Part shown: one piece after another, positions 53,178 through 58,821 of the stretch
Layout of the letters: each line of letters starts with the position of its first letter
Numbering within the stretch: the stretch's first letter is position 1
DNA from: Acidobacteriaceae bacterium
Lineage (GTDB): Bacteria > Acidobacteriota > Terriglobia > Terriglobales > Acidobacteriaceae
NCBI GenBank assembly: GCA_025361625.1
Contig: JANYKL010000043.1
Location: 1-64,000, forward strand
Reading direction: 5' to 3'
DNA length: 64,000 nucleotides
Translations under genes and position numbers: made by a program
Notes under the pieces: model-generated
The model's input: only the letters and a program-made list of their open reading frames with translations
What the model was told of the DNA's origin: nothing
Database searches by the model: none

Positions 53178-54200
53178 TTACGGCTGAATAAATTTCCCCT
53201 TTGTCACGTACGTCATCACGAGCGCGGTCGCATAGGCCGTAACCTCGGCCAAGTGTTCCGGCATGCGTGTTTTATCGGCGCGCAGATCAAGCTCCGCAGT
53301 GCGCTTCTCAATCGAGTCAATCAATTTCCTGATCAACGGGCGCTGCGCGCCCGTCCATTGCGCGACTTTATCGATCACCGCTTTACGATGCTCGTGTAAA
53401 AATTCATTCGCCGGAACCGCTGCTTTCCTGCGCTTCGACACCGCGAAAATATCGCGCAAATCCGTATCCGGAGTCAGTTCCGAGACTGCGAGTTCTTCGC
53501 GCGCCGCCTGCTGAATGTTGTAAAACTCGGCGACGGTCGTCTCCATGTCATCGACGGTGATGTCGGTCTGCCCGCGACGCCGGGGCGGATCGATCTTGCC
53601 CAACTTCCGCGCCAGGCGATTCAGGTACACCACCTTGTCGAGCGCCGGCCATCCCCGATAGCGTTTGCGCCAGTTCGAACGCGGCGTCAGCCATACCGCA
53701 AAGGTCTCGGCAAAGTCCTCGTCCGGATGCTTCTGGGCGTACCAACCGGGCAGATGCCGCACGTAGTCGCGCGAGAACGGAGCGGGCCGGTAATTATCGC
53801 GATAGGGACGGCGAAACGGGCCGAAAATTTGCTTCCACTCCGGCTTATTGTGCAGCTTGTAGGCATAAACGAATGCATGCCCGGCTTCATGCCGCAGGTA
53901 CATCATGATCTCGCGCGCGTCTTCGAGATCGTGCGTTTCCTTTTCAAGCTGCGCCAGCGCCGTGCTCGCGAGATAAAACGGAATCCCGATAATCGGCTCC
54001 CCCGACGGGCATCCCCATTCATCGGTTAAATAAACTTCGGGACGAAACTTAGTCAGGCCCTTGGCTTCAAGCTCGCGATAAAGCTGCTCGACGAACCGCT
54101 CCACGGGAGACCCGGCGAGTTTGAGCCCCAGCTCGCGGATGGGCCGGGTCAGGAATTCCTGATACGCGGGTTCGGGTTTATCAATGACGACGCTATGCAC
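53178..54200 (-). CDS. Putative zinc-binding metallopeptidase
   Basis: 340 residues. Residues 104-108 are HEAGH (YLRHEAGHAFVYAY) and a downstream DFAETFAVW (E165) is the likely third ligand, so this is a gluzincin-like or related HExxH peptidase. No signal peptide or membrane helix is seen, so it acts in the cytoplasm. The start is GTG at 54200. It precedes an ATP-grasp ligase gene; peptide-forming and peptide-cutting enzymes in one operon suggest a small-peptide pathway. It resembles uncharacterised zinc-binding peptidases rather than a named enzyme. Confidence 0.75.
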   Translation of the reverse strand: MHSVVIDKPEPAYQEFLTRPIRELGLKLAGSPVERFVEQLYRELEAKGLTKFRPEVYLTDEWGCPSGEPIIGIPFYLASTALAQLEKETHDLEDAREIMMYLRHEAGHAFVYAYKLHNKPEWKQIFGPFRRPYRDNYRPAPFSRDYVRHLPGWYAQKHPDEDFAETFAVWLTPRSNWRKRYRGWPALDKVVYLNRLARKLGKIDPPRRRGQTDITVDDMETTVAEFYNIQQAAREELAVSELTPDTDLRDIFAVSKRRKAAVPANEFLHEHRKAVIDKVAQWTGAQRPLIRKLIDSIEKRTAELDLRADKTRMPEHLAEVTAYATALVMTYVTKGKFIQP

Positions 54201-54411
54201 AAGGCCTCATTGCACTGAACCGCGCGCTTGCGCGGGCATTATCGCTTAGATTAACAGTAGTGGAGGGTGGGATCGGGCGGAAGTGACTGCGGTAATGCGA
54301 CCTGAAGCCACCAATAAATTCTCGAGCCAGCTTTTTCCAAAAAAACTGTCTGGATTGATTGCCCACTTTCGCGGTGCGTCCTGTGTATGATGTAGAGCCA
54401 ATAGGTTCCTG

Positions 54412-55551
54412 ATGATTGTTACAAAACTTATCCTGCAAAACTGGCGCAATTTTCGCACTGTTAATATCGAACTGACCCAGCGCGTCTTCGTTGCTGGGCC
54501 GAATGCCTCGGGCAAATCTAATCTGCTGGACGTTTTTGCCTTCTTACGCGATATAGCCAAAGCGGGGGGCGGCCTTCAGAAGGCGGTCAACGAGCGGGGA
54601 GGCATAGCGAAGTTACGATGTTTAGCGGCGAGGCGGTACCCGGATGTCGAAATTGAGGTTCAGGTAGCCGACAACGGGACCTTGTGGTCTTATGCTATCG
54701 GAATAAAGCAGGAGGCAAGAGGATACCGTCTACCGCTGTTGTCTTATGAACGAGTGATGAAGGGGGACGAAACGATCCTGACCCGACCGGACGACGATGA
54801 CAAACGCGATCCTCTACGGCTGACACAAACGCATCTCGAACAGATTAACGCCAATGCAGAGTTTAGGGACCTTGTCCGTTTTTTCGAATCTACTAGCTAT
54901 CTGCACCTGGTGCCTCAGTTGCTTCGCCATCCAGAGGCATTCTCCGGGCCCGGTGTTCCGGGCGACCCTTTCGGCAAGAGCTTCCTGGAAAAAGTTGCAA
55001 GAACCCCGTCGGGTACTAGGAAAGCGCGACTCAAGAGAATCGAGTCGGCCCTACGCATGGCCGTGCCCCAACTAAAGGAACTGAAAGATGTTAAGGATGA
55101 AACGGGCATTCCGCACCTCGAGGCAATTTACGAACACTGGCGGCCCCATGGAGCAAAACAACGAGAGGACCAGTTCTCAGATGGAACGCTTCGAATGCTC
55201 GGTCTTCTTTGGTCCCTTTTGGACGGCGATTCGCTTTTACTCTTGGAGGAGCCCGAACTTTCGCTGAATTTTGGCATAGTCCGAAAGTTGCCGGGGCTCA
55301 TGTATCGAATTCAGAGGCAGAAAAGAAGGCAGACAATTATCAGCACCCACAGCCCTGATCTCTTGTCCGACCCCGGAATTGGAGGAGAAGAGGTTCTTAT
55401 CCTTACGCCCAACGAGGATGGCACTAAGGCAGAGGTTGCTTCTTCAATCCAGGAAGTGAAAGACCTTTTAGAGGGAGGGCTCACAATTGCAGATGCAGCT
55501 CTTCCGAGGACCATTCCATCCTCCGTGGCGCAATTGGATCTTTTTGAATGA
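54412..55551 (+). CDS. AAA (AAA_21/OLD-like) ATPase of a two-gene cassette
   Basis: 379 residues. Walker A is GPNASGKS (29-36), preceded by KLILQNWRNF, which is the usual start of RecF/SMC-related AAA_21 ATPases. The ABC signature-like FSDGTLRMLGLLWSLL, Walker B LLLLEEPELSLNF and the H-loop TIISTHSPDLL follow. Its stop overlaps the start of the next gene by four bases (ATGA). These ATPases sense a trigger and gate a nuclease partner in OLD/Gabija/PARIS-type defences. Codon choice appears lower in GC than in neighbours gyrA and the peptidase gene. The exact system is not named. Confidence 0.88.
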   Translation: MIVTKLILQNWRNFRTVNIELTQRVFVAGPNASGKSNLLDVFAFLRDIAKAGGGLQKAVNERGGIAKLRCLAARRYPDVEIEVQVADNGTLWSYAIGIKQEARGYRLPLLSYERVMKGDETILTRPDDDDKRDPLRLTQTHLEQINANAEFRDLVRFFESTSYLHLVPQLLRHPEAFSGPGVPGDPFGKSFLEKVARTPSGTRKARLKRIESALRMAVPQLKELKDVKDETGIPHLEAIYEHWRPHGAKQREDQFSDGTLRMLGLLWSLLDGDSLLLLEEPELSLNFGIVRKLPGLMYRIQRQKRRQTIISTHSPDLLSDPGIGGEEVLILTPNEDGTKAEVASSIQEVKDLLEGGLTIADAALPRTIPSSVAQLDLFE

Positions 55552-56165
55552 CTTCTCCGATCCCATTAAATCTTGCCGTTGAAGACGCCTTGACGGAGTC
55601 ACTGTTCACGAAGATCATCCAGAGGCTACCTGCTCTCTACGCAATCCGCACGATCTACAATCGCGGCGGGTACGGTTACCTCCGGCAAAATATAAACGGT
55701 TTCAATAACGCCGCCCGAGGGACGCCTTTTCTAATAGGAACTGACTTGGACGAGTATGAGTGCCCTCCGGCGCTCATTGTACACTGGCTATCGCGACCCA
55801 AACACCACAACTTGCTCATCCGGGTTGCCGTGCGGCAAGCCGAAGCGTGGGTTCTCGCCGATAAGGTGAACTTCGCAAACTTCTTGGGGATTCGCTCCGC
55901 TCTCATACCCGATGAAGTTGAGACCATTCCCGACGCAAAACGCGAATTGATCAATCTAGCGAGGAGAGCGAGGAGAAGAGAATTGCGGGAGGATATTTGT
56001 CCTCCCGCTAACAGCACCAGAACTGTCGGACCGAACTATAACCCGCGTCTAGCTACATTTGTTCAGCAACATTGGAACCCAAATACTGCTAGAGAGCACG
56101 CTTCGAGTCTGGCACGCACAATTGAACGATTGAGAGCCTTTCAGCCGCTGTGGCCGCAATCATAG
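55548..56165 (+). CDS. Toprim-like (DUF4276/DUF4435-type) nuclease candidate
   Basis: 205 residues, overlapping the ATPase gene by ATGA. Features of the Toprim fold are an early acid (LNLAVEDALTESLFTK, E12), a DxD-type pair in FLIGTDLDEYECPP (D66, D68) and the segment RVAVRQAEAWVLADKVNF, which matches the EAW(L/V)LAD signature of DUF4276-like proteins. A C-terminal helical part is rich in Arg. Toprim nucleases act downstream of AAA sensor ATPases. I infer that the pair is a defence cassette; no exact family can be claimed. Confidence 0.7.
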   Translation: MTSPIPLNLAVEDALTESLFTKIIQRLPALYAIRTIYNRGGYGYLRQNINGFNNAARGTPFLIGTDLDEYECPPALIVHWLSRPKHHNLLIRVAVRQAEAWVLADKVNFANFLGIRSALIPDEVETIPDAKRELINLARRARRRELREDICPPANSTRTVGPNYNPRLATFVQQHWNPNTAREHASSLARTIERLRAFQPLWPQS

Positions 56166-56166
56166 A

Positions 56167-58821
56167 CTACTGAATCAGCGTCCCATTCCCACTCGGCTCT
56201 TCCGGCGGAATCACCACCGCGGCGGCCACGCGATCGCCGGGCTCAACATTTATCAATCGCACTCCTTGCGCCGAGCGGCCTGACTCGCGGATGAACTTTG
56301 AATCGATGCGGATAATTTTGCCGTACTGGCTGATCAGCATCACTTCTGATTTATCCGTCACCTGCGAGATGCCTACCACTTTGCCGTTGCGTTCGGTGGT
56401 CTTGACGTTGATCACGCCCTTGCCGCCTCGATTGGTCAGGCGGTATTCGTCCGCCGGAGTGCGCTTGCCATAGCCGTTCTCGGTGACCGAGAGGATGAGC
56501 GAGCCCTTCTCCGGTACAAGGTCGGCGACTTCGGGCGCAACGTCGTCTTGTGACTTCTCGACAACAACCTTAGCCTCTGGCTTCGTCGTAGTGGCCATGC
56601 CGACGATGTAATCTTTCTCGCCAAGGTTCATGCCGCGCACTCCGGTGGCGTTGCGGCCCATGGAGCGAACGTCGTTTTCGTCGAAGCGGATCGCCTGCCC
56701 ATCGTGCGAAGCGAGGAATACGATCTGATTGCCGTCGGTCAAGGAGGCAGCGACCAGTTCATCGCCTTCTTCGATGTTGATGGCGATGATGCCGCGCTGC
56801 ATCACGTGACAGAAGTCTTTTACTTCAGTCTTTTTCACGGTGCCGTTGTGCGTGACGAAGAAGACGAACCTGCCTTCTTCTTCAAGGTCGCGCACGGCGA
56901 GCATGGTGCGAACCGTTTCTCCCGGCTGCAGTGCGACCAGGTTGCCGACGTGCTTGCCCTTGCCGGCGGCGCTGACGTCAGGAATTTCGTAGACCTTGAG
57001 CCAGTAGACGCGCCCCTTGTTGGTGAAGATCAGGATGTAGGCGTGGGTCGAGGCGATGAAAAGATGCTGGACGAAATCCTCGTCGCGGGTCTTCATGCCG
57101 GTACGGCCCGTGCCTCCGCGGCGCTGCATGCGGTAGGTCGAAATCGGAGTGCGCTTCATGTAGCCGAAGTGGCTGACGGTGACCGCGACTTGCTCATCGG
57201 CGATCAGGTCTTCGAGCATGATCTCCGCAGCTTCATCTTCGATTACCGTGCGGCGGGCGTTGCCGTAGAGTTTCTTAACTTCCTCGAGTTCTTTGATGAT
57301 GACTTTGCGCAGCTTCACTTCTGAGCCGAGAATGGATTCAAACTCTGCGATTGCGTCGCGCACCGTCTTCAACTCGTTCGAAATTTCATCGATGGAAAGT
57401 TTGGTTAGGCGATGCAATTGCAGTTCGAGGATGGCGTCGGCCTGTTTCGACGTAAACGGGCGATCAGCAGCGAGCTTTGGCGCGCGGCCGGTGACGTTGA
57501 TGTCGATCTTCTTGCCGCCAAAAAACGCGACCAGGTTTTCGCGCGCATCGGCGCGGTTGGCGCTGGCGCGGATGATCGTGATCACGTTGTCGAGGTGGTC
57601 GAGCGCGGTCAAGTAGCCTTCTAAAATGTGCTCGCGGTCTCGCGCCTTGTTCAGCAAATAAAGAGTGCGGCGGCGCACCACATCGACGCGATGGTCGATG
57701 AAGTGTTTGATGGCCTGGATCAGGCCCATTTCCTTCGGCTGCTGGTTGACCACCGCGAGCAGGATCATGCTGAAACCTTCCTGCATCGACGTGTGCTTAT
57801 AGAGTTGGTTCAGCACAATTTGCGGCTCGGCTCCGCGTTTCAGCTCGATCACAATGCGCATGCCGTCACGATCGCTCTCGTCGCGAATGTCGGAGATGTC
57901 ATCGATCGTCTTCGCGTTGACAAGGTCGGCGATGCGCTCGATCAAGCGCGCTTTATTCACCTGGTACGGAATTTCGGTGACGATGATCGCCTGCTTGTCT
58001 TTGGTGACGCTTTCGATGGCGGCGCGGGCGCGCATCATGAAGCGACCGCGTCCGGTGCGGTAAGCTTCGAAAATTCCGGCGCGGCCGTGAATGATGGCGG
58101 CGGTCGGAAAGTCGGGGCCTTGCACGAATTTCAAAATTTCAGGCAACTGCGCGCCGGGATTATTCACGAGCGTGATCGTGGCGTCGACGATCTCTGTCAA
58201 GTTGTGCGGCGGAATTTTGGTCGCCATACCGACGGCAATGCCGTCTGAACCGTTAACCAGCAGATTGGGATAACGCGCGGGAAGTACGGACGGCTGCGTC
58301 TCCGTTCCGTCGTAGTTCGGATAAAAATCAACCGCTTCTTTATCAAGATCTTCAAGCAGCGCGGTAGAAACACGCGTCAACCGGGCTTCGGTATAACGAT
58401 CGGCTGCGGGAGGATCGCCATCGACCGAGCCGAAGTTTCCCTGACCATCGACCAGAGGAGCGCGCATGGCAAAGGGCTGCGCCAACCGCACCAGCGCGTC
58501 GTATACGGCGAGGTTGCCATGCGGGTGGTACTTACCCATCACTTCTCCGACGATACGGGCGCATTTACGCGTTGCGCCGCCGGGACGAAGGCCCATCTGC
58601 TGCATGGTGTAAAGAATGCGGCGATGCACCGGCTTCAAGCCGTCGCGGACGTCAGGCAGGGCGCGGCCAATGATGACGGAGAGGGAGTAGTCGAGGTACG
58701 ACCGCTTCATCTCATCTTCAATGTTCACCGGCAGCATGTTGAGCGCGCCCGGGCCGGCAGGAGGTTGGCCGTCGCCGCCGGGAGGAGTTAAGGGGAGTTC
58801 GGGATTTTTATCGTCAGCCAT
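56167..58821 (-). CDS. gyrA: DNA gyrase subunit A
   Basis: 884 residues. The DNA-cleavage Tyr is Y143 in AADRYTEARL; the quinolone region reads KYHPHGNLAVYDALVRLAQ, with N103 and L104 at the positions of E. coli D82 and S83. The GyrA box is QRRGGTG (consensus QRRGGKG or close), so this is gyrase and not topoisomerase IV. Six beta-propeller repeats form the C-terminal half. It breaks and passes DNA with GyrB to introduce negative supercoils. The N-terminus has an extra Pro/Gly-rich lead before the usual start near MLPVNIEDEMKRSYLDYS. gyrB is not adjacent. Confidence 0.96.
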   Translation of the reverse strand: MADDKNPELPLTPPGGDGQPPAGPGALNMLPVNIEDEMKRSYLDYSLSVIIGRALPDVRDGLKPVHRRILYTMQQMGLRPGGATRKCARIVGEVMGKYHPHGNLAVYDALVRLAQPFAMRAPLVDGQGNFGSVDGDPPAADRYTEARLTRVSTALLEDLDKEAVDFYPNYDGTETQPSVLPARYPNLLVNGSDGIAVGMATKIPPHNLTEIVDATITLVNNPGAQLPEILKFVQGPDFPTAAIIHGRAGIFEAYRTGRGRFMMRARAAIESVTKDKQAIIVTEIPYQVNKARLIERIADLVNAKTIDDISDIRDESDRDGMRIVIELKRGAEPQIVLNQLYKHTSMQEGFSMILLAVVNQQPKEMGLIQAIKHFIDHRVDVVRRRTLYLLNKARDREHILEGYLTALDHLDNVITIIRASANRADARENLVAFFGGKKIDINVTGRAPKLAADRPFTSKQADAILELQLHRLTKLSIDEISNELKTVRDAIAEFESILGSEVKLRKVIIKELEEVKKLYGNARRTVIEDEAAEIMLEDLIADEQVAVTVSHFGYMKRTPISTYRMQRRGGTGRTGMKTRDEDFVQHLFIASTHAYILIFTNKGRVYWLKVYEIPDVSAAGKGKHVGNLVALQPGETVRTMLAVRDLEEEGRFVFFVTHNGTVKKTEVKDFCHVMQRGIIAINIEEGDELVAASLTDGNQIVFLASHDGQAIRFDENDVRSMGRNATGVRGMNLGEKDYIVGMATTTKPEAKVVVEKSQDDVAPEVADLVPEKGSLILSVTENGYGKRTPADEYRLTNRGGKGVINVKTTERNGKVVGISQVTDKSEVMLISQYGKIIRIDSKFIRESGRSAQGVRLINVEPGDRVAAAVVIPPEEPSGNGTLIQ

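Follow-up and report, generated by a model that had tools for sequence, protein, structure and literature searches.

Positions 54,412 to 56,165 of the window, by which we mean the whole analyzed stretch of 64,000 nucleotides from a draft assembly of 196 contigs, are occupied by two plus-strand genes, A and B, whose stop and start codons share the letters ATGA, an arrangement that may couple their translation. Both open reading frames begin with ATG and run as the original prediction, made from the letters alone, had described them, and the motifs that it quoted are found in the translations: GPNASGKS, LLLLEEPELSLNF, and THSPD in gene A, and E12, TDLDE (with D66 and D68), and RQAEAWVLAD in gene B. 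The pair lies between a peptidase gene and gyrA, as had likewise been stated: Upstream, a divergent Peptidase_Mx gene occupies 53178–54200 on the minus strand (PF15887, E 7e-8), and downstream the convergent gyrA (56167–58821, minus strand) is separated from the stop codon of gene B by 1 bp. The individual features are:

54412..55551, plus strand: gene A, HEC-01A, ABC/AAA_21-type ATPase of 379 aa with an SMC/Rad50/PtuA/AriA-like head (PADLOC, Pfam, model, structural matches)
54496..54519, plus strand: Walker A motif GPNASGKS, residues 29–36 (translation)
55177..55188, plus strand: ABC-signature-type motif SDGT, residues 256–259 (invariant in 27 homologues)
55234..55266, plus strand: Walker B motif LLLLEEPELSL, residues 275–285, with E279/E280 (glutamates invariant in 27 homologues)
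55348..55350, plus strand: H-loop histidine H313, in THSPD (invariant in 27 homologues)
55531..55545, plus strand: putative sliding-clamp-binding motif QLDLF, residues 374–378 (published consensus; family conservation compared with controls)
55548..55551, plus strand: ATGA stop/start overlap of genes A and B (sequence)
55548..56165, plus strand: gene B, HEC-01B, Toprim-fold putative nuclease of 205 aa, DUF4276-related (PADLOC, model, PF14103 matches of relatives)
55581..55583, plus strand: Toprim glutamate E12 at the end of the first strand, residues 5–11 (invariant; model)
55743..55751, plus strand: Toprim DxD, D66-L-D68, at the end of strand 61–67 (D66 invariant, D68 in at least 90%; model)
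55821..55862, plus strand: conserved block R92...E99-x-W101...D105 (invariant residues)

Both genes carry a name in PADLOC-DB. Gene A matches the HEC-01A model PDLC04180 with 527.8 bits over residues 1–377 of 379, compared with 133 bits for the next model, and gene B matches the HEC-01B model PDLC04194 with 209.5 bits over residues 1–201 of 205, compared with 155 bits for the next model, which is likewise one of HEC-01B. The original prediction could not place the pair in a named system and took it for a possible new variant; the full-length matches of both genes rule this out, and the locus is a new copy of an already catalogued candidate system. Judged by these profile matches, its identity as HEC-01, a two-gene candidate anti-phage cassette, is nearly certain. 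The name stands for Hma-embedded candidate and stems from a guilt-by-embedding study (Payne et al. 2024, bioRxiv 10.1101/2024.01.29.577857) cited in PMC12988326; the passages found in the latter describe several HECs, including HEC-06, as active and do not name HEC-01.

The linkage of the two genes in other genomes, on which the original prediction had made itself depend, is conserved: Gene B directly follows gene A in 29 of the 29 loci first examined, overlapping it or standing a few bases away except in damaged copies, and the two adjoin in most of 80 loci from Cyanobacteria, Bacteroidota, Pseudomonadota, Poribacteria, Actinomycetota, and others. In nearly all relatives the overlap is 4 bp or is replaced by a gap of a few bp. 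The co-occurrence with defense islands to which the same prediction had pointed was found as well, with relatives inside or beside Hma and methyltransferase genes: In one locus (L050) the pair sits exactly between HmaA and HmaB, in another (L038) it occurs together with HmaA, HEC-05, and HmaB, and in a third (L048) it adjoins a type III methyltransferase. We consider a role of the pair in defense likely. Its spread is patchy, with HEC-01 in 22 of 396 genomes of the phylum and 13 of 398 of the family. Relatives were found by alignment with gene A, while a protein scan of the genome contigs with gene B as query returned none; plasmid and INPHARED phage collections gave no HEC-01A match at the limits used. 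Five viral contigs from IMG/VR (L216–L220) encode HEC-01A, with HEC-01B detected beside it in three, and the tails of these viral HEC-01A proteins include QLGLW and QLGLL.

The genes also stand out in composition. Their GC3 values of 0.551 (A) and 0.566 (B) compare with a window mean of 0.636 (sd 0.043) and rank second and fourth from the bottom among 43 window ORFs, and their codon fit is likewise among the lowest in the window, which modestly bears out the earlier impression of a lower GC and codon texture than in the neighbors. The hint of transfer drawn from that impression is backed by the low GC3 together with the patchy distribution in the phylum. Moreover, the interval between gyrA and the peptidase gene (54201–56166 in the window) is variable: In three same-genus genomes without the pair at this site it measures 232 to 1059 bp, the shortest version being nearly empty and the 1059-bp version containing a DUF3800 gene, and in seven further ones it extends over 2.0 to 5.6 kb and holds other cargo, VapBC, PIN/DUF433, AAA_16, and M48 peptidase genes among it (loci compared: L068, L081–L085, L088, L091, L097, and L098). 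In three other genera of the family (L032, L034, and L042) the HEC-01 pair is directly convergent to gyrA. Because of this variable cargo and the recurrence of the pair beside gyrA, the 3′ side of gyrA is an exchange site. Clean vertical inheritance of the gyrA-side copies finds no support in the tree, whose resolution is too low, and L043, which stems from a different family of the phylum, holds an equally close copy; either repeated insertion or old inheritance with losses may account for them.

Gene A has the features of an ABC ATPase. It matches AAA_21 in Pfam (E 1.9e-36), and its structure model (mean pLDDT 89) resembles the heads of SMC, Rad50, PtuA, and AriA about equally, with Z of 19–21. 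Within Walker A, residues G29, N31, A32, G34, K35, and S36 are invariant among the 27 homologues.

The partner has no Pfam match of its own, and a profile search of gene B against PDB sequences returned only meaningless kinetochore matches; for this reason, its fold was taken from a model (pLDDT 94.0, pTM 0.89). The order of strands and helices is that of Toprim, with E12 following the first strand (5–11) and D66/D68 following the third (61–67). Foldseek ranks OLD Toprim domains best, albeit with weak E-values (0.014), and a second fold comparison gave Z 8.8 to the OLD Toprim 6nk8 and Z 7.5 to AriB 8ux9 (rmsd 4.6, 163 aligned residues). Taken by itself, a Z of this size would support the assignment only moderately, and the remaining weight falls on the conserved E...DxD site: E12, G41, D66, R92, E99, W101, D105, and K131 are invariant across 28 homologues, D68 nearly so. 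The reading of the pair as AAA plus Toprim is thus upheld by the model and the fold comparison, the acidic site that it presupposed being present with E12 and D66 invariant, and the suggested link to OLD and PARIS-like systems gains support from the OLD and AriB Toprims among the nearest solved folds. With respect to the two families named for comparison, the outcome is split: DUF4276 (PF14103) is matched by 27 of 28 relatives of gene B (best E 1.5e-8), whereas none of the 28 B proteins matches DUF4435 at E up to 1, and a DUF4435 partner is therefore rejected. Our literature search found no paper naming DUF4276. Gene B is predicted, with high confidence, to be an active metal-dependent nuclease. 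At one related locus (L041, 5103–6886, genome G033) the ATPase frame is broken and the Toprim gene is still open, an arrangement that, if the lone effector is intact, would bear on whether B is toxic without A.

The original description of the ATPase missed the tail of the protein. Gene A ends in ...AQLDLFE, with QLDLF one residue before the C-terminus (379). Bacterial proteins classically attach to the sliding clamp through QL[S/D]LF, and the revised consensus reads Q-aliphatic-x-[LM]-[FL], or a hexapeptide with an extra residue before the last (PMC12309361, PMC13254535); for QLDLF itself, very tight binding to the E. coli clamp has been reported, with a KD of about 6.9 nM (PMC12309361). When tails were scored by the strict published consensus within the last 12 residues, 51 of 101 HEC-01A proteins, or 22 of 53 clusters at 65% identity, carried the motif; a further 19 of the 101 have near-consensus tails such as QMDLF and QLGLW, and 31, several actinobacterial ones included, have no motif even in relaxed form. 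Among the neighboring ORFs, which served as the motif-frequency control, the strict consensus occurs in 2 of 601, and among twelve-residue pieces of the A core in 2 of 1682. The corresponding Fisher p of 2e-24 is only descriptive because the homologues are not independent. A slightly different motif pattern was found in 68 of 101 HEC-01A proteins compared with 1 of 601 neighboring ORFs, and the other AAA_21 matches in the phylum have the motif in 0 of 24 cases.

Stronger arguments than the p-value are the free variation of the x position (S, T, A, G, or D), the switching between motif forms, and the recurrence of the motif in a second subtype. Both QLxLF and QLxLxL/F occur in the family, and a tree computed from the proteins minus their tails requires at least four separate changes to the hexapeptide. 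The second HEC-01A subtype (PDLC04178) is 25% identical to the window protein with a tail that cannot be aligned, and its members end in QLRLF, QIRLF, QIALF, or QLSLF; the PDLC04182 subtype is without the motif. In the main subtype the spacing between the motif and a conserved TxP hardly varies, and a short helix is modeled at the motif of gene A (about pLDDT 80); given this spacing and helix, the tail could instead pack on A or B. Among individual loci, clamp-type C-termini of the PDLC04178 subtype were seen in L224, L233, L241–L245, L247, and L251, with L247 encoding two neighboring HEC-01A-like genes, one with QLSLF and the other with QMEIDF near its C-terminus. In Brachybacterium (L159), HEC-01A has the C-terminal hexapeptide QLALRL, and the HEC-01A proteins of three actinobacterial loci (L171, L176, and L178) have unrelated tails and no motif. 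The founding preprint aside, our search of the literature returned no paper linking the HEC-01 family or AAA–Toprim defense to clamp binding, and as far as that search extends, the clamp-type tail of HEC-01A is unreported.

Pairing an AAA ATPase with a Toprim protein is a common strategy of bacterial immunity, and we know of no account of what most such pairs sense or where they act. The sliding clamp, in turn, is borrowed by many phages. We propose that HEC-01A is an ABC ATPase of the SMC/Rad50 kind in minimal form. Two copies of it would be expected to close when ATP binds and to contact DNA, and the ATPase would hold and control HEC-01B, a Toprim nuclease on a separate polypeptide whose E...DxD site would bind metal. 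The C-terminal QLDLF of HEC-01A would dock into the hydrophobic pocket of DnaN, a step that we hold to be somewhat more likely than not, and would thereby keep the complex on DNA that has just been replicated or carries a loaded clamp. When replication is disturbed, for instance by phage forks or by a phage that takes over the clamp, the nuclease would be released or activated, most likely to cut DNA; we lean slightly toward DNA over RNA as the target. To this replisome-docked explanation as a whole we assign a probability of about 0.5. Its full form as immunity, in which the ATPase rides the host clamp, surveys replication, and unleashes the Toprim protein on phage replication or clamp interference, is more tentative and falls a little short of even odds.

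The main rival is a cage of the PARIS type, in which the ATPase would sequester a toxic Toprim ribonuclease until a phage protein triggers its release, tRNA would be cut and the infection aborted, and the tail would serve as an A–B or A–A contact. We hold it to be rather unlikely. In AriA/AriB the ATPase forms such a cage and the AriB Toprim cuts tRNA (PMC12409363), and the pair in the window shares the layout of an AAA ATPase with a separate Toprim partner in one operon; the model of gene A matches AriA 8v46 (Z 19.2, rmsd 3.8, 272 aligned residues), and gene B matches AriB as given above. The latter score, however, lies in a range where unrelated folds also score, gene B groups with DUF4276 and not with DUF4435, and gene A has 379 residues compared with 464 in AriA. 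The tail itself speaks to both sides: A cage can accommodate the nearly constant spacing to TxP and the lack of the motif in a third of the family and in the PDLC04182 subtype, whereas the switching between penta- and hexapeptide and the recurrence in an unrelated tail would sooner be expected of a clamp ligand than of a packing surface.

The SMC/Rad50-like fold of A together with the clamp-type tail would also suit a host function in replication or repair, with a RecF/Rad50-like ATPase and a nuclease acting at clamp-marked DNA, and an archaeal ATPase of the OLD family, Cran1, is reported to serve cell-cycle progression rather than defense (PMC12796447). The patchy occurrence in phylum and family argues against such a role, as do the Hma and methyltransferase loci elsewhere, the low GC3, and the five viral contigs with HEC-01A, and we judge it improbable. 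Finally, the pair might be a decayed, inactive remnant at a site of cargo exchange, for which truncated or frameshifted relatives (L041, L052, and L059) could be cited; since the window frames are of full length, with every invariant active-site residue present and the overlap intact, this is very improbable indeed.

The significance of the replisome-docked explanation lies in the tail. Its persistence in different phyla, in either form of the motif and in two subtypes that have diverged, gives HEC-01 a concrete cellular address and suggests that the system is stationed on replicating DNA via its ATPase. If this is true, the clamp would be an immune surveillance platform as well as a part of the replication machinery.

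Compared with the catalogued HEC-01, the pair is the same in full-length matches, gene order, and adjacency and differs in being a solo insertion beside gyrA, whereas relatives are embedded in Hma loci. PARIS is likewise a two-gene system of AAA ATPase and Toprim nuclease with similar folds, but AriB is labeled DUF4435 and has about 305 aa, compared with the 205 aa of the DUF4276-related gene B, and gene A is shorter than AriA; gene A reaches 109.9 bits with the PADLOC model for AriA, a generic AAA_21-type model, far below its HEC-01A score, and its Z to AriA is equaled by those to SMC and Rad50. The OLD nucleases, GajA of Gabija, and the OLD protein of retron-Eco8 also combine an ABC ATPase with a Toprim nuclease, and gene B finds one of its best structural matches in the OLD Toprim; in class 1 OLD, GajA, and retron-Eco8 OLD, however, both parts form one polypeptide, whereas two ORFs encode them here. 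With Peptidase_Mx and gyrA as its neighbors, the window pair adjoins neither a UvrD/Rep-like helicase such as GajB nor a reverse transcriptase as in retron-Eco8. In Septu (PtuA/PtuB) and the PtuAB of retron-Eco7, the ATPase is matched by the model of gene A (PtuA, Z about 21) and has a separate nuclease partner as well, but PtuB is an HNH nuclease and gene B a Toprim protein.

The tail, for its part, places HEC-01A beside known clamp-binding proteins, namely Pol III, PolC, Hda (QLSLPL), and RecB (QVEMEF), which share the motif, in PolC as a likewise C-terminal QLSLF (PMC12309361, PMC13254535). These are replication and repair factors, however, and none is a two-gene defense pair of ATPase and Toprim. 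A toxin–antitoxin system that also involves the sliding clamp is that of the Rosmer toxin RipA from Streptococcus pneumoniae, in which the clamp is the target and neither an ATPase–Toprim pair nor a clamp-binding motif is mentioned (PMC12795458). With RipA there is a precedent for a toxin system that meets the clamp, albeit not in the manner that we propose for HEC-01.
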